Shown one piece after another: positions 1 through 59,526 of a DNA stretch of 59,741 bases (within the stretch, counting starts at the first letter, position 1; each line of letters starts with the position of its first letter). Under the pieces are notes generated by a model, which saw only the letters and a program-made list of their open reading frames with translations, ran no database searches and was not told the DNA's origin. The position numbers were made by a program, and so were the translations under genes. The stretch comes from Acidaminococcales bacterium (GTDB taxonomy: Bacteria; Bacillota; Negativicutes; Acidaminococcales; JAISLQ01), in contig JAISLQ010000046.1 of the NCBI GenBank assembly GCA_031290885.1, forward strand, positions 1-59,741, in the 5' to 3' direction.

Positions 1-813
1 GCGGTAAAAGGCGGCGTTACCTGCGAAGTGTTCGGGTTGCGCGGATTCATTCCGGCCTCGCATCTCGGGCTGGAACGGGTAGACGATCTTTCTGTTTTCG
101 TGGGGCAAAGAATCCCGGCGCAAGTAATAGAACTTAATCTGGACGGTCCGCGCAAAAAAATAATTTTGTCGCGGCGCGAATTGCTAAAGCAAGACAGGAC
201 GGCGAAAGAGGCGGAGTTTTACGCCCGGATCAAAGCCGGCGAAAAATACACCGGCATCGTGTCGCGGCTTACCGATTTTGGCGCTTTTATCGATTTGGGG
301 GGAGTGGACGGGCTTTTGCACGTTTCCGAAATGTCCTGGCAAAAAGTCAAACATCCGGCGGACGTTCTCTCCGTAAACGAAGAAATTGAGGTCATGGTAA
401 AAAAAGTCGATGCCGAAAACAAGAAAATATCTTTAAGCCGGCGCGAATTGCTGGAAGACCCCTGGCTTTCAAATGTGAGCGGCTTTAAAGAAGGGCAGAT
501 TGTCAGCGGCAGAGTTACCCAGATGACCAAATTCGGCGCGTTTGTGCTTTTGGGCGAAGCGGTGGAAGGGCTTGTCCATGTTTCGGAAATTGCCGAAGAA
601 CATATCGAAAGCCCCGAATCCGTCCTGAAGGCCGGCGAGGAAGTAAAAGCTAAAATACTCAAAATCGACAAAAAAAACAAAAAGGTTTCCCTGAGCATAG
701 CGAAAGCGAAAAAAGAAGAAGGCCGGCTGGAAATGAAAGAATTTATCGGCGACAATTCCGAATTCAAAACGTCCATCGGCAGCAAGTTCAACCTCAACAA
801 GATTTTTGACTGA
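1..813 (+). CDS. rpsA: 30S ribosomal protein S1 (C-terminal part, 5' end outside window)
   Basis: The frame is open from base 1, so the gene begins upstream of the window. About 270 residues remain. They show the end of one S1 RNA-binding repeat (GLRGFIPASHLGLE), then two complete repeats with the usual DFGAF...GLLHVSEMSW and KFGAF...GLVHVSEIA cores, each followed by KKISLSRREL or KKVSLSIAKA. Multiple S1 repeats in tandem identify ribosomal protein S1, which binds mRNA on the 30S subunit. In Negativicutes and clostridia S1 is often fused behind IspH; the following isoprenoid gene fits that context, but the fusion cannot be seen here. Confidence 0.9.
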   Translation, partial: AVKGGVTCEVFGLRGFIPASHLGLERVDDLSVFVGQRIPAQVIELNLDGPRKKIILSRRELLKQDRTAKEAEFYARIKAGEKYTGIVSRLTDFGAFIDLGGVDGLLHVSEMSWQKVKHPADVLSVNEEIEVMVKKVDAENKKISLSRRELLEDPWLSNVSGFKEGQIVSGRVTQMTKFGAFVLLGEAVEGLVHVSEIAEEHIESPESVLKAGEEVKAKILKIDKKNKKVSLSIAKAKKEEGRLEMKEFIGDNSEFKTSIGSKFNLNKIFD

Positions 814-831
814 CCGCCCGGGGAGGCTTGC

Positions 832-1881
832 ATGTTAAGACAGTCCCGCAAACTGGAACACATAGAATATTTTTTGCGGACGGCCGGCGAGCGGGCGGAT
901 AACGGGTTCGCCGACATAAATGTCCTGCATGACTGTTTGTCGGGGCATGCGCTCTCGGATGTTTGCCTGAAAACAAATTTGCTGGACATCCGGCTTGAAC
1001 ATCCGATCATCATCGATGCCCTGACCGGCGGCGACGAACGGGTGATAGAGATCAACCGCGCCCTTTCCCTGGCGGCTAAGGCATCCGGCTGCGCTCTGGC
1101 GGTCGGCTCGCAGTACGCGGCCATCAAAAACCCGGCGGCGCGCGCGAGCTACGAGATAGTGCGCAAAGAAAACCCGGACGGCGTCATCTTTGCCAACATC
1201 GGCGCTTACGCTTCCCCCGCCGAAGCAAAGGAAGCGGTTGACATGCTGTCGGCCCAGGCGCTGGAAATACATCTTAACGTAGCGCAGGAACTTTTCATGG
1301 CGGAAGGCGACCGCGCTTTCTGCGGCTACTTAAGCAACATAGAAAAAATAGCCGCCCTTTTGCCGGTTCCCGTCATCGTCAAGGAAACTGGCTGCGGAAT
1401 GTCCATGGAAGCGGCTGCCCGGCTGCTCGGCGCCGGCGTCAAAATCCTCAATGTCGCCGGGGCGGGCGGCAGCAACTTTATCGCGATCGAAACGGCGCGC
1501 GCCGATAAAACATTGGACGGCGCCTTGCGCGGGTGGGGGATCAATACCGCCGTGAGTACGCTTGAAGTGGCGCACATAACCGATGGGCGCGCCGATATAA
1601 TCGTTTCCGGGGGAATAAGGACGGCTTTGGACATTATAAAAGCGCTGGCCTGCGGCGGCCGCGCCGTGGGCATTGCCGGAATGTTCCTGAAAATACTGGC
1701 CGAGCAGGGCGTAGATGGACTGTGCGCCAAAATAGAAAATCTCCTGGACGAATGTAGAAAGTTGCTTTTGCTTACAGGCTGCGCCTCTGTTGACGCGCTG
1801 CGGAAAAAACCGCTGGTTGTTACGGGCTTTGCCCGGCAATGGATTGACGCCAGGGGCATTGACCCGCTCAAAGGGCGCTGA
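832..1881 (+). CDS. fni: Type 2 isopentenyl-diphosphate delta-isomerase
   Basis: A 349-residue FMN-dependent enzyme that interconverts isopentenyl and dimethylallyl diphosphate in the cytosol. The TIM-barrel pattern is clear: IIDALTGGDE near the N-terminus, LAVGSQ, HLNVAQELFMAEGDR, PVIVKETGCGMS, NVAGAGGSNFIAIE and the late IIVSGGIRTALDIIKALACGG that holds the FMN phosphate. The ATG has a GGGAGG ribosome site nine bases upstream. It lies 18 bp behind rpsA and is probably co-transcribed with it. Length matches the family. Confidence 0.9.
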   Translation: MLRQSRKLEHIEYFLRTAGERADNGFADINVLHDCLSGHALSDVCLKTNLLDIRLEHPIIIDALTGGDERVIEINRALSLAAKASGCALAVGSQYAAIKNPAARASYEIVRKENPDGVIFANIGAYASPAEAKEAVDMLSAQALEIHLNVAQELFMAEGDRAFCGYLSNIEKIAALLPVPVIVKETGCGMSMEAAARLLGAGVKILNVAGAGGSNFIAIETARADKTLDGALRGWGINTAVSTLEVAHITDGRADIIVSGGIRTALDIIKALACGGRAVGIAGMFLKILAEQGVDGLCAKIENLLDECRKLLLLTGCASVDALRKKPLVVTGFARQWIDARGIDPLKGR

Positions 1882-44697: not shown

Positions 44698-44812
44698 GTT
44701 AATCGCGGCAGGATATATGGCAAGCATTGCAGTTTTGAGGTGGCAACATGGCGAACATTTTACGGAAGCGGCAGGGTGATTGGGAAATAGTCTGGAAAGT
44801 TAACAAAAATGA
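44698..44812 (+). repeat. Direct repeat, first copy (promoter region plus 5' end of kinase-like gene)
   Basis: The 115 bases from 44698 to 44812 match 45865-45979 with only two substitutions seen (44724, 44774 region). The repeat covers about 50 bp upstream and the first 21 codons; similarity resumes past the G tract to about 44867 and then falls to ordinary paralogue level. Confidence 0.85.
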
Positions 44813-45546
44813 GGGGGGGGGGGGGTAATTATCCGGAAATTTTGCAAATATTTAAAGACGGCGGCAATTATCACAAACTGATTTATGCCAATTACGAATT
44901 GGGGCGATATATCTATCTAATAGAAACCGCCGGGCGCAGATTTGCTATCAAACACATTAAACAGGACAAAGAACGTTTTGAAAAGATTTGTTATCAAAAA
45001 ATCATCGGTTGCGCATATTATCCAAGAATACTCCGTTTAACGGCCAAGGCCATTGACAAGGGCTGTGTTGCGGCGCAGGACATTTTTTTAGTGGCGGAAA
45101 GAAAAATCAGTTTTACAGCAAAGGAGATATTCATTATCGCTGAGTATGTTGAAGGCAGGCCGCTGGGACGTGATTATGCCCGACAAGAGTATCGGCGGCC
45201 TATAGTCAATCTTTTGCAGCAATTGCACCTTTATGGATTGGCCGTATGCGATTTTCAGCCTGGCAACATAATAGTAACTCCTGAAAACAAGCTCAAGGCG
45301 ATTGACATCTCCATCAATTCTCTTATATCATATTGCCAAGCGAAGGATGTTTTGTGTTTTTATAAATATTTTAATTTTGTTCCGGTTGAAGAACTGAATT
45401 TTTCAATTAAATTGAAATCATTATTCTGGTTTATTTTTTATAGAGATAAAATCAGGTGTTTTGTCAGGCAAATTAGGCAGAAATTAAATATATTTACAGA
45501 TCATTCCCTTAAAAATGAAGATGAAACACTGGATGAAAAGGACTAA
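44748..45546 (+). CDS. LPS-kinase-like protein, phase-variable, OFF in this sequence
   Basis: From ATG 44748 the first 26 codons match the intact neighbour at 45915, then a run of 13 G puts TAA (44826) in frame. The rest of the gene is intact in the +1 frame to 45546. With 12 G (or 15) the product would be about 265 residues, the same as the neighbour. The protein resembles RfaY/InaA-type lipopolysaccharide kinases: the ATP Lys in RFAIKHIK, EYVEGRPLG, and a catalytic loop reading YGLAVCDFQPGNIIV with Asp and Asn, then KAIDIS. A short form from ATG 44809 lacks a ribosome site. It would phosphorylate a surface glycan or LPS core sugar; the substrate is unknown. Confidence 0.75.
44813..44825 (+). 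repeat. Homopolymeric G13 tract
   Basis: Thirteen consecutive G after GA at 44811-44812. The corresponding place in the paralogue is broken up as GGGAGAAGGGGG, so only this copy is prone to slippage. Loss of one G, or gain of two, restores the frame. Confidence 0.9.
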
Positions 45547-45864: not shown

Positions 45865-45979
45865 GTTAATCGCGGCAGGATATATGGCAAACATTGCAGT
45901 TTTGAGGTGGCAACATGGCGAACATTTTACGGAAGCGGCAAGGTGATTGGGAAATAGTCTGGAAAGTTAACAAAAATGA
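45865..45979 (+). repeat. Direct repeat, second copy
   Basis: Second copy of the 115-bp direct repeat, offset from the first by exactly 1167 bp. It carries the upstream region and first 21 codons of the intact kinase-like gene. Confidence 0.85.
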
Positions 45980-46718
45980 GGGAGAAGGGGGTAATTATCC
46001 AGAAATTTTGCAAACATTTAAAGACGGCGGCTACGCTGCAACGCCGCTTTACCTGAACCATGCACTTGGCCGGTATATCTATATTATTGAAACAGGCGGA
46101 CGCAAATTTGCCGTCAAACATATTTTGCGGCACAAAGAAACTTTTGAAAAAAGTTGTTATGAGATTTTTGCCGGCTATTCGCATTATCAAAGAAACTTTC
46201 ATTTGACGGCCAAGGCGATTGAGCAAGGTTGCGCTGTAGTGCAGGATATTTTTTTGGTGGCGGAAAGAAAGACAGGGTTTTGCACGAAAGAAATATTTGT
46301 CATTGCCGAATATGTCGAGGGAAATATTCTCAATCATGATTTTTGCGGTGAACATGAAAGACATTGGTTGCCGGCAATTCGCCTTTTAAGTGAATTGCAT
46401 TCTTACGGATTGGCAGCTTGCGACTTTAGGTATAAGAATGTAATAATTACGCCGGAAAACAAACACAAGATAATTGACCTTTCCATTTCGGCCCATACGC
46501 CGATAGCAATTTGTCAGGCTAAGGATATGGTGAGAATAAAAGAGTTGTTTAATGTCAATCCTTTTGAAGAAATGCGGGTGCGTTCCCTAAAAGCAAAAAT
46601 TTTTTTCTGGTTTGTTTTTTACAGATACCAGGCAAAGGACTTTGTCCGCAAAACCAAATCTAAATTAAAGGCGGCGGCAGGTTATTGCCTTGAAAGCGAA
46701 GACGAAAGCGTTCAATAA
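45915..46718 (+). CDS. LPS-kinase-like protein (RfaY/InaA type), intact paralogue
   Basis: A 267-residue protein paralogous to the gene just upstream. Kinase-like features are GGRKFAVKHIL (Lys), FVIAEYVEGNIL (hinge), YGLAACDFRYKNVII (catalytic Asp and Asn) and KIIDLSI (metal Asp). The C-terminus is basic and aromatic (FFWFVFYRYQAKDFVRK), possibly a membrane-surface helix. Similarity to eukaryotic-like kinases that phosphorylate LPS core heptose or Kdo is by motif only. The location inside a cobamide cluster looks like an insertion, since pduX follows 88 bp later. Confidence 0.7.
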   Translation: MANILRKRQGDWEIVWKVNKNEGEGGNYPEILQTFKDGGYAATPLYLNHALGRYIYIIETGGRKFAVKHILRHKETFEKSCYEIFAGYSHYQRNFHLTAKAIEQGCAVVQDIFLVAERKTGFCTKEIFVIAEYVEGNILNHDFCGEHERHWLPAIRLLSELHSYGLAACDFRYKNVIITPENKHKIIDLSISAHTPIAICQAKDMVRIKELFNVNPFEEMRVRSLKAKIFFWFVFYRYQAKDFVRKTKSKLKAAAGYCLESEDESVQ

Positions 46719-53826: not shown

Positions 53827-53913
53827 ATGAAGCAGCGAACTTTCTCCGACATAGAATGCTCGAATCGCAAGCGGCAAGCCAAACGGGGCGATTTCCTGGA
53901 AATTATGGACGAA
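53827..53913 (+). mobile_element. IS5-type transposase N-terminal fragment
   Basis: ATG 53827 begins MKQRTFSDIECSNRKR and, after a few residues, RGDFLEIMDE, a pattern I know from the N-terminus of IS5-family transposases. The similarity ends after 29 codons. No catalytic domain or terminal repeat is visible, so it is a remnant, lying at the edge of the deleted hsdR. Confidence 0.5.
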
Positions 53914-53962
53914 AGCGGAATGGGTTGCGACAATCAAGCCGTTTTGCTTCGGCAATGCTGCC

Positions 53963-54218
53963 CTTGGCGAAAAACGTCTTGGCGAAATCCACGATGTCGT
54001 CGATGCGCTTATTGTTCGCGTCCGCCCAGCATGAGGCAAACTCAAAGCGGCCGCTCGTTTTCTTGCTCTTGCGGCGTTCGTTAGTTCCCTGATCTTTGAT
54101 ATGGGCGTTGCGGGCGGCGTTGTTGCAATGCTTGGTTTCCGCGCCGTTGGAAATTACGAAAATCTGAACGTGCTCGAACAGATACGGCCGCTTCAAGCGG
54201 CGTGTTCACTTGGCTCAT
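53963..54218 (-). pseudogene. Type I restriction endonuclease HsdR remnant
   Basis: An ATG at 54218 overlaps the hsdS stop (TGATG) and reads [11 protein letters not shown], a plausible HsdR start. After these codons the sequence jumps, in another frame, to an internal HsdR segment: RPYLFEHVQIFVISNGAETK, then KTSGRFEFASCWAD and KRIDDIVDFAKTFFAK. The nuclease motif, helicase domains and C-terminus are all missing. Restriction by this locus is therefore impossible without a second hsdR. Confidence 0.7.
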
Positions 54219-54781: not shown

Positions 54782-55508
54782 TGTAAATATCTCGCCCAGC
54801 TTCAGCCAGACTGTTTGTTTGTTTGTTTGTTTGTTTGTTTGTTTGTTTGTTTGTTTGTTTGTTTGTTTGTTTGTTTGTCAACAGCGTTTCACGGTTTTCG
54901 TCAAATGTCAAGAGGTAATTTCTGTAATATTCATATTGCTTTTTCCGGGCTGCAAGCTCCGCTGCAAGCTCCGCTGCAAGCTCCGTAAAATTGTCGAGTA
55001 TCTCGACAATTTTACGCTGCACGGGCAGCGGCGGGAGGGGGATACGAATAGCTTGCAACGCCGGTATGTTTGAATGAACGACCTTGCTTTTTACCCGTCC
55101 TTTACTCTTTTGCTCTTGCGCCATTATTGTGGAAAGAGCATAAGACATATACTTCGGGTCTTGGTTATGCTTCATAACGACAATATCGCCGCCAGCGTAA
55201 CAGGTTTCGTGACCGATGTAAACGGTTGACTTCGCAATTTCCTCAACGCTCTCGCCTGTTATGGCAAACAAAACGTCACCGTGTCCGAACGTCTTAATGC
55301 CTGTTTGCGTGCGAGAAACGCACTCGTCAAACCAAATGCCGTAAGTAGTGTAGATTTCACCATATCGAACACAAGGCGTACCCGTTGCGGTCACTTCTTC
55401 ACGCTTAATGCCCGAACCGCGATACATATCGGTCGCTATCTCCCCAAGTTTGGCGTACCTCACCCCGTTCGGGCAATGTTCTTTGATCAGCGCGTCCATT
55501 CTGCCCAT
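54774..55508 (-). CDS. hsdS: HsdS specificity subunit, first half (TRD1) with frame-breaking repeat
   Basis: A 244-residue product. ATG 55508 follows GGAGGGG. TRD1 covers residues 1-160 ([34 protein letters not shown]), then the conserved spacer helix ([20 protein letters not shown]) with three AAEL-type repeats, and [13 protein letters not shown]. The C-terminal 22 codons inside the GTTT tract read as repeated TNKQ, after which a stop at 54774 cuts off TRD2. A half-HsdS may dimerise to recognise a palindromic site. hsdM is not in the window. Confidence 0.82.
54813..54878. repeat. Tetranucleotide (GTTT)16.5 tract in hsdS
   Basis: Sixty-six bases of perfect GTTT units on the plus strand (AAAC on the coding strand). 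Loss of one unit, or gain of two, brings TRD1 and TRD2 into one frame. Confidence 0.95.
54949..54984. repeat. Three 12-bp repeats in the HsdS spacer
   Basis: GCTGCAAGCTCC occurs three times in tandem (54949-54960, 54961-54972, 54973-54984), encoding repeated AAEL. In EcoR124I/EcoDXXI a 12-bp repeat at the same place (TAEL, two or three copies) changes the spacing between the two half-sites. Confidence 0.85.
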
Positions 55509-55816
55509 ATTTCTTCCCCTCCCGCGTCTTTTGGCGCAAGTTCCACGCGTTCGCAAATCACCTCGGCGGCGGTGCGCTTATGGGCGGCGCAGCGCATTTT
55601 GTTCTGCGCCGCAGCGAAAAACTACCGCGCAATCTCGGCTTTCGGGTTGCAGTCGATTGCCGTGGCGTAGATGTCCGTCACCTGCCGATAGAGGTTGCGC
55701 TCGCTGCTGCGAAGGTCGCGGATGCCTTGCGGCAGTTCGCGCAAGTAACGCCCGCCGCCGTTTTTCGGTCGCTCGTCGTCCATAGTGAACCCTTTGCGGA
55801 TATATTCGTTCAGCCG
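55487..55816 (-). pseudogene. RhuM-family protein remnant with in-frame stop
   Basis: The codons read RLNEYIRKGFTMDDERPKN, then RDLRSSERNLYRQVTDIYAT and AEIAR, then TAG (55622-55624), and continue in the same frame as [20 protein letters not shown] to a TGA at 55487. This is the middle of RhuM proteins (about 330 residues), which often sit between hsdM and hsdS. The N-terminal third is lost, and a nonsense codon interrupts the rest. The end overlaps the hsdS start. Confidence 0.7.
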
Positions 55817-55905
55817 CCAACTCTCCCCTTGCCGCAGAGTATCTGGACGCGCCGCCCGCTTATTCCCCAAAGTTCCGATGTTTCCTTAACGGTCATCCAG
55901 TCCAC
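55810..55905 (-). pseudogene. Small helix-turn-helix protein, truncated
   Basis: GTG 55905 with a GAGG site reads VDWMTVKETSELWGISGRRV and ends in CGKGRVGG followed by TGA at 55810. The pattern is that of small MerR-like HTH proteins common in clostridial accessory DNA (ETAELWGISxRRV...CxxGRIPGA), which continue for about 50 further residues. It has been joined to the RhuM remnant at about 55815, in a different frame. Confidence 0.55.
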
Positions 55906-56467: not shown

Positions 56468-58624
56468 ATGAATGTGTTAATTACCGGTGGGTATGGTTTT
56501 ATCGGATCCGCCACCGCGGAGCGCTTGTCCAAGGAAGGCTGCAATATATTTATCGTCGATAATTTGTCTTCTAACGCAGTAAATAATCTGAAAATAAAAC
56601 ATACTTTTTATCAGATCAATGCCGGCGGCGCGCAATGCGAAGACGTTTTCCGCATAAATAACATAGATGTGGTCGTACACCTGGCGGTTGCGGAGGTAAC
56701 CGACATTGAGGGGCTCAAAGCAAATCAACTTGGATTGACCAATGTTTTGGCCATGGCGCAAAAATACGAGGCCAAGCAGGTCATTTGCGCTTTTTCCGCG
56801 TTCTTTTCCCCTGACGCAAAATTGCTCGCTCACGATGGCCGGCCGATGGAATTGCCTGTTTCCCCGGAAAAGGCCTGGCATACGACAGCGGTTAATTATT
56901 GCCTTGGTTATCGCCGACTTTACGGCATGAACGTTGCCGCGCTTTTTCTTTCCAACGTCTACGGCCCGAGGCAAAAGAAAGGCGTTTTAAGCGAATTTGT
57001 CGAAAGGGTTTTTCATTATCGCCCGCTCGTTGTTTACGGCGATGGCCGCCAGACGAGGGACTTCATCCACGTGGACGACGTTGCCGACGCCATATACCGG
57101 ATGATTTCAAGAAACTATCAAGGCGAGCGCCTTACGGTTTCGTCAAATTCCGAAACGGCCGTCAACGATTGCCTTGAAATATTCAAGGAACTTACCGATC
57201 TTAAAGTCGAGCGCGCCAAAGCCCGTCCGGGCGATATCGTCCGCATGTCGGCCGACAGTTCCGCCTGCCGGGAGGAATTGGGCTGGCGGATTAAGTATGA
57301 CATAAAAAAGGGCATTATCGCTACTTGCTATTGGTATAAAAACAACCTTCCGGCCGATACGGAAGATGCCGCTAAAGCTGGAAAAGGCGCCCTGTGGAAA
57401 AATATGCGCCCTTATGTCGAAAACTTGGCGTTTTTTGGCGTCATGGTCCTTCTGTCCGTGTTTGTGTACGACAATTCGATTGTCGATCCCAATATAAACC
57501 TTGACTATAATTTTGTTTACATTTTGACCATGGGAGTATTGTACGGCAAGAAACAATCCATCCCGGCCACGGCGTTGTCCGCTATTTTGCTTTCCTACAA
57601 CATAATAACTAAATATGACGACTTTGTTTCCATGATTTATAAAACCGAATATATTGTCCATTTTTCCGCCTATTTCTTTTTCGGCATATTAAGCGGATAT
57701 ATAACCGACAACCGAGAAAGGCTGCGCAGTTTCTTGGAAAGAGACGTGGCGCAGATCAAGGAGCGGTATAAGTTCCTTGAGCGTATCTATTTGGAAAACG
57801 TAAACGCCAAGAACCGCCTGTACAAACAAATAGTTAATTCTGAAGATACGCTGGGCAGCACCTACCGGATTATCAAAAAGCTTGACAATGTCAACGTGGA
57901 GGGCATTTTTACCGTTGCCGGCGAAGTGTTGTCGGAAATAACGGGAACCGAGCACTTGGCGGTTTATTCTTTTGGCAGCAACAATAAATATTATTTGCGG
58001 CAAAAGATACGGCTCGGCTATAAGACAGTTGACCTGCCAAAGTCCTTGAAAGTGGAAGCATACGAATACTTGCGCAATATGCTGGCAGATCGGCAATTGT
58101 TCGTCAACAAGATGTTGACCCCCGGCTTGCCCGACATGGCCGCGCCGGTGCTGCGCGACGGTGAAGTTATCGCCGTTATTCAGCTTTATGATCTGTCCTT
58201 TGAAGATCTTAACCTTTACAAGCAAGACCTTTTGCAGGTTACCACCAGGCTGATTTCCGATGCGCTGAACAGGGCCTATTTGTACGAAGCGCAGGCACAA
58301 GACAAAAAATATCTGCCCGACACCCGCATACTTATCGCCGACGAGTTTGCTAAAATACAGAGGGAAATTTATAAAAACCGCTTGGATCGCTATGATTACG
58401 TTTCGGCTTTTACCCTCAAAATAATTACGCAGGAAGAGAATATGCGCGAAATCAGCGACAAGATGCTGAACGTGCTGCGCGAGGAAGATTTCATCGGACT
58501 TGACGAAGAAGGCAAAATAAATGTTATTTTATGGAATATTGATGAAGATATGATTCCGATGGTACAAAAACGCATAAAGAACATTGGCTTTGATTGTGTG
58601 CGTGTCTCGGAACATGAACAATGA
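56468..58624 (+). CDS. pelD: Epimerase-like domain fused to PelD-type c-di-GMP receptor
   Basis: A 718-residue protein. Residues 1-300 form an extended SDR epimerase fold (VLITGGYGFIGSATAERLSK, LFLSNVYGPRQKKG, YGDGRQTRDFIHVDDVADA). Where active epimerases have SPYGASK, this has SPEKAWH, so the catalytic Tyr and Lys are Glu and His. Residues 315-410 hold about four membrane helices, followed by a coiled-coil linker, a GAF domain (about 450-600) and a degenerate GGDEF domain that keeps an I-site RxxD (REED, residues 671-674) but has LDEEG in place of GGDEF. This C-terminal layout is that of PelD, the inner-membrane c-di-GMP receptor of Pel export. The next gene, pelE, overlaps by ATGA. Confidence 0.8.
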   Translation: MNVLITGGYGFIGSATAERLSKEGCNIFIVDNLSSNAVNNLKIKHTFYQINAGGAQCEDVFRINNIDVVVHLAVAEVTDIEGLKANQLGLTNVLAMAQKYEAKQVICAFSAFFSPDAKLLAHDGRPMELPVSPEKAWHTTAVNYCLGYRRLYGMNVAALFLSNVYGPRQKKGVLSEFVERVFHYRPLVVYGDGRQTRDFIHVDDVADAIYRMISRNYQGERLTVSSNSETAVNDCLEIFKELTDLKVERAKARPGDIVRMSADSSACREELGWRIKYDIKKGIIATCYWYKNNLPADTEDAAKAGKGALWKNMRPYVENLAFFGVMVLLSVFVYDNSIVDPNINLDYNFVYILTMGVLYGKKQSIPATALSAILLSYNIITKYDDFVSMIYKTEYIVHFSAYFFFGILSGYITDNRERLRSFLERDVAQIKERYKFLERIYLENVNAKNRLYKQIVNSEDTLGSTYRIIKKLDNVNVEGIFTVAGEVLSEITGTEHLAVYSFGSNNKYYLRQKIRLGYKTVDLPKSLKVEAYEYLRNMLADRQLFVNKMLTPGLPDMAAPVLRDGEVIAVIQLYDLSFEDLNLYKQDLLQVTTRLISDALNRAYLYEAQAQDKKYLPDTRILIADEFAKIQREIYKNRLDRYDYVSAFTLKIITQEENMREISDKMLNVLREEDFIGLDEEGKINVILWNIDEDMIPMVQKRIKNIGFDCVRVSEHEQ

Positions 58625-59526
58625 AATTTGATTTTGCGGCGTTGGCCGCCGTCCATCTTTTGGTTTGTTTTGCGTATTATGTTTTTGCCAGAATAAAAGT
58701 AGGCAACAACACGCAGTCTTTTAGCGAAGGCGTCATTGCGTTGGCCATGCCGGTTTTTGGCGTAATCTTCCTTTTGGGCGTGCGTTTGGCGCAGTCGTTC
58801 GCCAATTCGGATGAGCGCATGACTGTCGACGTATATAACAAGTCATCCCTCGGGCGGCTGATTATGGGCGAGCTTGAGAAATATGAGGATGATGTGATAT
58901 CATTAAACGACGTTTTGGCGATGGACGATGCCAAACAAAAGCGTATCCTGCTTACTAACGCCGTAAAGCAAAATGTTCTCAGCAACAAAGACGTTTTGCG
59001 CAAAGCCATTAAAGATGCAGACCGCGAAGTATCCCATTACGCTGTTTCAATGGTTACTACCATGGTTGAGGAAATTGAGAAAAAATTATTTGATTTGAAC
59101 AAAAAGCTGCAAGAGCGGCCTGACGATAAAAATTTGTTGACGGAATACGTAAAAAACATGGACGAATATTTGAAAGTATGTTATCTTGATGACGTATCGC
59201 GCCGAAAAAGCGAAGAAGCCTATAACAACGCGCTGGAACGCCTTATTGAATATGATCCCGACGACCCGGGCCTATATGAAACGAAGATAAACTATGAACT
59301 TAATTTCGGCAATTTAAAAAAGGCGGAAACCTACTGCCAAAAATTCGCGCAAAAGTATCCTTTGTCGGAAGTGCCTTTTCTTTCTTATATGAAGCTTTAC
59401 AAGCAGATGCGCGATTTCAATAAATTCTACGCGAAAATGCAAGAGATGAAAAGCTGCCCCATTCAGCTTACTCCCCGCGCCTTGGGCATAATAAGGTTTT
59501 GGAACAGGGAGTCGCGCAATGGTTAA
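58621..59526 (+). CDS. pelE: PelE-like membrane TPR protein
   Basis: A 301-residue protein. Two membrane helices lie at residues 5-25 and 37-58, followed by a soluble helical region with TPR-like pairs (EAYNNALERLIEYDPDDPGL, LKKAETYCQKFAQKYP). This matches PelE, which links PelD to the Pel synthase complex at the inner membrane. It overlaps the PelD fusion (ATGA) and the next gene by eight bases, so the operon is tightly coupled. Confidence 0.75.
   Translation: MKFDFAALAAVHLLVCFAYYVFARIKVGNNTQSFSEGVIALAMPVFGVIFLLGVRLAQSFANSDERMTVDVYNKSSLGRLIMGELEKYEDDVISLNDVLAMDDAKQKRILLTNAVKQNVLSNKDVLRKAIKDADREVSHYAVSMVTTMVEEIEKKLFDLNKKLQERPDDKNLLTEYVKNMDEYLKVCYLDDVSRRKSEEAYNNALERLIEYDPDDPGLYETKINYELNFGNLKKAETYCQKFAQKYPLSEVPFLSYMKLYKQMRDFNKFYAKMQEMKSCPIQLTPRALGIIRFWNRESRNG

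Follow-up and report, generated by a model that had tools for sequence, protein, structure and literature searches.

The window is 59,741 nucleotides long and corresponds to contig C46 of a metagenome-type assembly that totals 2.13 Mb across 85 contigs. It contains two tandem WaaY-like kinase genes, copy A and copy B, flanked by a cobT-like gene and a GHMP kinase gene within a cobalamin operon. Early in copy A, at codons 22–26 counted from the ATG at position 44748 (ATG 44748), the plus strand carries a run of 13 G. This was the only run of G or C longer than eight in the window, and its length was not reached in any of 100 dinucleotide shuffles of the window sequence. From ATG 44748, which is preceded by a Shine-Dalgarno-like motif, the frame at 13 G comprises 26 codons and then ends at a TAA, as a preliminary description of this DNA had claimed. 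The same description held that the run is interrupted in the paralogue, and copy B indeed reads GGGAGAAGGGGG at the equivalent site, where it aligns as 12 bases against the G tract of copy A.

We computed the reading frames of copy A for tracts of 10–15 G. From ATG 44748, 12 G gave a WaaY-like kinase of 265 residues, bearing out the earlier proposal that removal of one G joins the start to a full-length kinase-like frame, and 15 G gave a kinase of 266 residues; with 11, 13, or 14 G, the frame stopped after 26–44 codons. The two long products are nearly as long as intact copy B, to which the preliminary description had equated the repaired frame, although they are not identical to it in length. 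At 13 or 10 G, an internal ATG directly 5′ of the tract opens a frame that spans the entire kinase domain and would specify a product of 245 residues, which begins MRGGGGNYPE, is without ~20 N-terminal residues of the long form, and retains the match to WaaY profiles. The ribosome-binding site of this ATG (GGAAAG, nine bases upstream) appears weak by eye. Because the internal ATG is in frame at 13 G, this state of copy A may correspond to an N-truncated, "short or low" protein rather than to OFF, which weakens the case for a clean OFF state at 13 G; 11 and 14 G are the predicted clean OFF states.

Features of the kinase gene pair and the hsdS-like locus in the window.
Feature	Position	Strand	Basis
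168-bp leader and 5′ coding block of copy A	44698–44865	+	Alignment with copy B
GAGGTGG, Shine-Dalgarno-like, before ATG 44748	44737–44743	+	Sequence
Copy A, a WaaY-like kinase gene; G13 shifts the frame from ATG 44748	44748–45546	+	Profile match, frame computation
Internal ATG directly 5′ of the G tract	44809–44811	+	Frame computation
G13 homopolymer, proposed slippage tract	44813–44825	+	Run scan, shuffles
TAA closing the ATG 44748 frame at 13 G	44826–44828	+	Sequence, frame computation
167-bp block of copy B matching the copy A block, tract interrupted (GGGAGAAGGGGG)	45865–46031	+	Alignment with copy A
Copy B, intact WaaY-like paralogue, 267 aa	45915–46718	+	Profile match, alignment
Split hsdS-like gene (type I specificity), halves of 260 and 187 aa	54218–55556	−	PF01420, frames
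Perfect (AACA)16 repeat within the hsdS-like gene	54812–54878	−	Repeat scan, frames

Both copies matched the Pfam WaaY family (PF06176) above its curated cut-off of 20.3 bits, copy A at 55.4 bits (E = 8.6e-15) and copy B at 45.8 bits (E = 7.3e-12). Like enterobacterial WaaY/RfaY, the LPS core heptose(II) kinase, they have kinase catalytic motifs and match the NCBIfam RfaY model NF007684 over nearly its full length (E = 1e-25 for copy A and 1e-20 for copy B). Unlike the enterobacterial enzyme, they occur as two tandem copies, score below the NF007684 equivalog cut-off of 248 bits (90.6 bits for copy A and 74.2 bits for copy B), and lie outside a waa locus; when membership in a waa/LPS core locus was tested, neither copy belonged to one. 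By score, the predicted proteins are thus WaaY-like, and assignment as RfaY heptose(II) kinases proper is unsupported. The characterization of copy A as an LPS-kinase-like gene is therefore upheld by the WaaY match but not by the RfaY equivalog score or by the gene's location. With two sequences as input, AlphaFold produced an unusable model (pLDDT 35). Elsewhere in the genome, contig C38 carries profile matches to gmhA (phosphoheptose isomerase), hldE, hldD, and heptosyltransferase-like genes. Judged from these genes alone, the host can produce LPS-core heptose, so that a heptose kinase would have a substrate. The lineage (Negativicutes, Acidaminococcales) and this locus support the earlier placement of this DNA in a Firmicutes lineage with an outer membrane.

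Copies A and B share 54% protein identity, and yet a block of 168 bp extending from the leader to codon 39 differs between them by only four substitutions outside the tract and has sharp edges. So near-identical and sharply bounded a block suggests recent gene conversion or 5′ exchange between the copies, by which the tract and its interrupted, locked counterpart could be swapped from one copy to the other. The two genes have 38–41% GC as against 57–58% for their neighbors, and full-length WaaY-like genes were found in this genome only, with none elsewhere among 380 genomes of the class. Other matches to the WaaY family in the class were partial, fell mostly in frames of ~540–560 residues, and look like UbiB/ABC1 kinases. 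A scan of genome contigs with copies A and B as queries found no relatives, and a plasmid search returned a single weak Escherichia coli match within a 4.9-Mb record. Because the genes are AT-rich and full-length WaaY-like genes were absent from the other genomes of the class that were searched, copies A and B were probably acquired. The nearest relative examined was Acidaminococcales bacterium MAG JAISPA010000200.1, whose neighboring GHMP kinase protein is 84% identical. In the sister species, represented by one genome, a contig begins inside a homologue, the C-terminal end of which occupies the corresponding site ahead of the GHMP kinase gene; a search there for the cobT-like gene that marks the 5′ side of the locus did not find it. 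The shared position of the homologue end indicates that the acquisition would be older than the split of the two species.

The hsdS-like gene is probably a second phase-variable locus in the window. Both of its halves match PF01420 (Methylase_S), and the (AACA)16 repeat falls between the two specificity domains. With 16 units, the gene encodes a half protein of 260 residues, and 15 or 18 units would fuse the halves into a full-length HsdS of 444 or 448 residues, respectively. This repeat pattern was present in none of 60 relatives. In NgoAV hsdS of Neisseria gonorrhoeae, a G(n) simple sequence repeat (SSR) switches between a full-length and a shortened specificity protein (PMC7394358), an arrangement predicted here as well. 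The gonococcal repeat is G(n) and the one here is (AACA)16, and here the flanking restriction-modification genes look decayed. When hsdM and hsdR partners were sought nearby in the window, the only candidates were a RhuM fragment (55625–55870) and a short open reading frame (53906–54196) that resembles HsdR by eye and has no Pfam match.

Long G runs recur in the genus. Runs of at least 11 G numbered eight, on six contigs, in this genome. The sister species had four, and of 59 further genomes from the order, 50 lacked them. Markov models predicted 0.2–3 such runs compared with the eight tracts seen; for A or T runs of at least 10, the models predicted 79–358 and one was seen in this genome. On contig C256 of the sister species, glycosyltransferase, FkbM methyltransferase, manC-like, and APH-like kinase genes lie together as a single glycan locus. 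The APH-like kinase gene (104–841, minus strand), beside manC, carries G11 at codons 23–26, and 10 or 12 G would stop its frame after 46 or 64 residues; the FkbM gene, across manC from the kinase, ends at its 3′ side in a pentanucleotide repeat of 9.6 units (2386–2433). This kinase aligns with copies A and B over no more than 19 residues, which surround the catalytic motifs. It is thus not a close relative of the pair, and its G tract arose separately from that of copy A. Taken together, the additional SSR loci of the window and of the sister species point to a likely phasome across the genus. For the order, a study of termite guts refers to a single MAG (PMC9137090).

Several of the other runs are of a different character. 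On four of the six contigs of this genome that carry G runs, the run lies within ~150 bp of a contig end, a position at which the assembly may create artefacts, and those at the ends of C57, C14, and C49 are plausibly poly-G sequencing artefacts. At the end of C57 (L043 1–45), C11 and C30 runs occur ~200 bp upstream of a flagellin gene and are possibly a promoter-type switch or an assembly artefact. The interior runs of this genome are G13 of copy A and a G12 run on C37 (L041 2964–2975), which is upstream of a nucleoside-hydrolase-like gene and keeps the phase of an extended reading frame. Among contigs of the sister species, C96 has G11 in frame inside a gene named by eye as folP, which encodes dihydropteroate synthase (L105 2821–2831), an odd place for an unstable tract, and contigs C135 and C184 (L106 and L107) have G16 and G12 in an intergenic repeated element common to both.

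These runs bear on the idea that the genus simply tends to grow G runs and that the run in copy A is unstable and unshaped by selection. Such neutral growth is a serious rival for the existence of the tract, although not for its instability. Both species are enriched in long G runs, and the runs in intergenic repeats, beside tRNA genes, and in frame inside the sister folP do not look selected, but two of the genic tracts lie close to the 5′ end of a kinase-like gene, and hsdS and the glycan methyltransferase gene, which belong to classical phase-variable classes of gene, carry tetra- and pentanucleotide repeats rather than G runs. A tract of 13 G would switch copy A regardless. We consider purely neutral expansion an unlikely account of the locus.

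Because its flanks match copy B on both sides, the tract of copy A is no poly-G artefact, and the sequencing error that the preliminary description offered as an alternative is weak as an explanation for the tract itself, although it could shift the length by one. A true tract fixed at 12 G or shorter would make copy A an ordinary intact gene. Even 12 G would be far above chance and within the unstable range, and independent SSR loci are present in the genus; we therefore regard this explanation as very improbable, despite the fragmented metagenome-type assembly, in which a 13-base homopolymer may carry a one-base length error, and the alignment of copy B with 12 bases at the site. Scarcely any weight falls on a recent pseudogene, in which the frameshift would be fixed and copy A would decay while copy B works. 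A paralogue does exist and the ATG 44748 frame is broken in the assembly, but the kinase frame of copy A is open over 245 codons with no second stop or frameshift, the kinase-fold motifs are kept (a VAIK-type lysine, CDFQPGN, and IDIS), and dN/dS between copies A and B is low (~0.17, a value that is indicative only, as dS is saturated). The open frame, intact catalytic motifs, and low dN/dS also make long-standing decay of copy A unlikely.

We think it probable that copy A is a translational contingency gene, phase-variable through slippage at the G tract. Two features that define such loci are present: a tract beyond chance and a change in tract length that moves the start into or out of an intact frame. 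In the meningococcus, homopolymers of at least eight were mostly variable in single-colony reads (PMC5084427), and on this basis instability of the copy A tract is expected. Slipped-strand mispairing in vivo would lengthen or shorten the tract one G at a time. Translation from the strong start at 44748 would yield the complete WaaY-like kinase at 12 or 15 G and would end early at 11, 13, or 14 G; with 13 or 10 G, the weaker internal start could still yield the short form. Copy A would then alternate among a long form, a possible short form, and no product, and copy B, with its interrupted tract, would be expressed constantly. The copy A product most likely would phosphorylate heptose or a related sugar on a surface glycan. 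Cells in which copy A switches would thereby differ at their surface, for example towards phage, with a putative selective benefit. The position of the pair in a cobalamin operon rather than in a glycan locus counts against a glycan switch. We offer only tentatively, as a fuller picture that is less likely than not, a genus phasome in which repeats of one, four, and five nucleotides act as independent switches for glycan kinases, for a methyltransferase of a glycan locus, and for the specificity of DNA methylation, with copy A having three states by virtue of its overlapping start and being resettable by gene conversion from copy B.

Most known SSR contingency loci belong to host-adapted members of the Proteobacteria and Campylobacterota and to Mycoplasma. 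Copy A shares with the homopolymeric LOS and capsule loci of Neisseria and Campylobacter a poly-G tract in the 5′ part of the coding sequence, switching of translation by slippage of ±1, and a modification of surface sugars that for copy A is predicted from sequence. Unlike those loci, it resides in the Negativicutes, encodes a WaaY-like kinase, and has an internal ATG that may rescue an off-frame. Slippage-type switching of glycan biosynthesis genes also occurs in the phase-variable O-antigen genes of Vibrio cholerae O1, where it is relevant because the O antigen serves as a phage receptor (PMC3441752); copy A is a different gene in a different lineage. A literature search found neither phase variation of WaaY or another heptose kinase nor SSR switching in Negativicutes in the library searched. 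The mechanism is a known one, and for this lineage and gene family the search of that library turned up no earlier report. If our reading is correct, a diderm Firmicute with SSR loci in surface-glycan and hsdS genes would mean that a further lineage with an outer membrane evolved this strategy, perhaps in response to phage or to a host. Switchable and locked paralogues of the same kinase, side by side, would moreover provide a test within one genome.

At the far end of the window (56468–59526, plus strand), a protein of 718 residues, in which an NAD-epimerase domain precedes a DUF4118 region, is encoded ahead of a further membrane-type protein, and these genes may resemble those of Pel polysaccharide operons (PelD/PelE-like).
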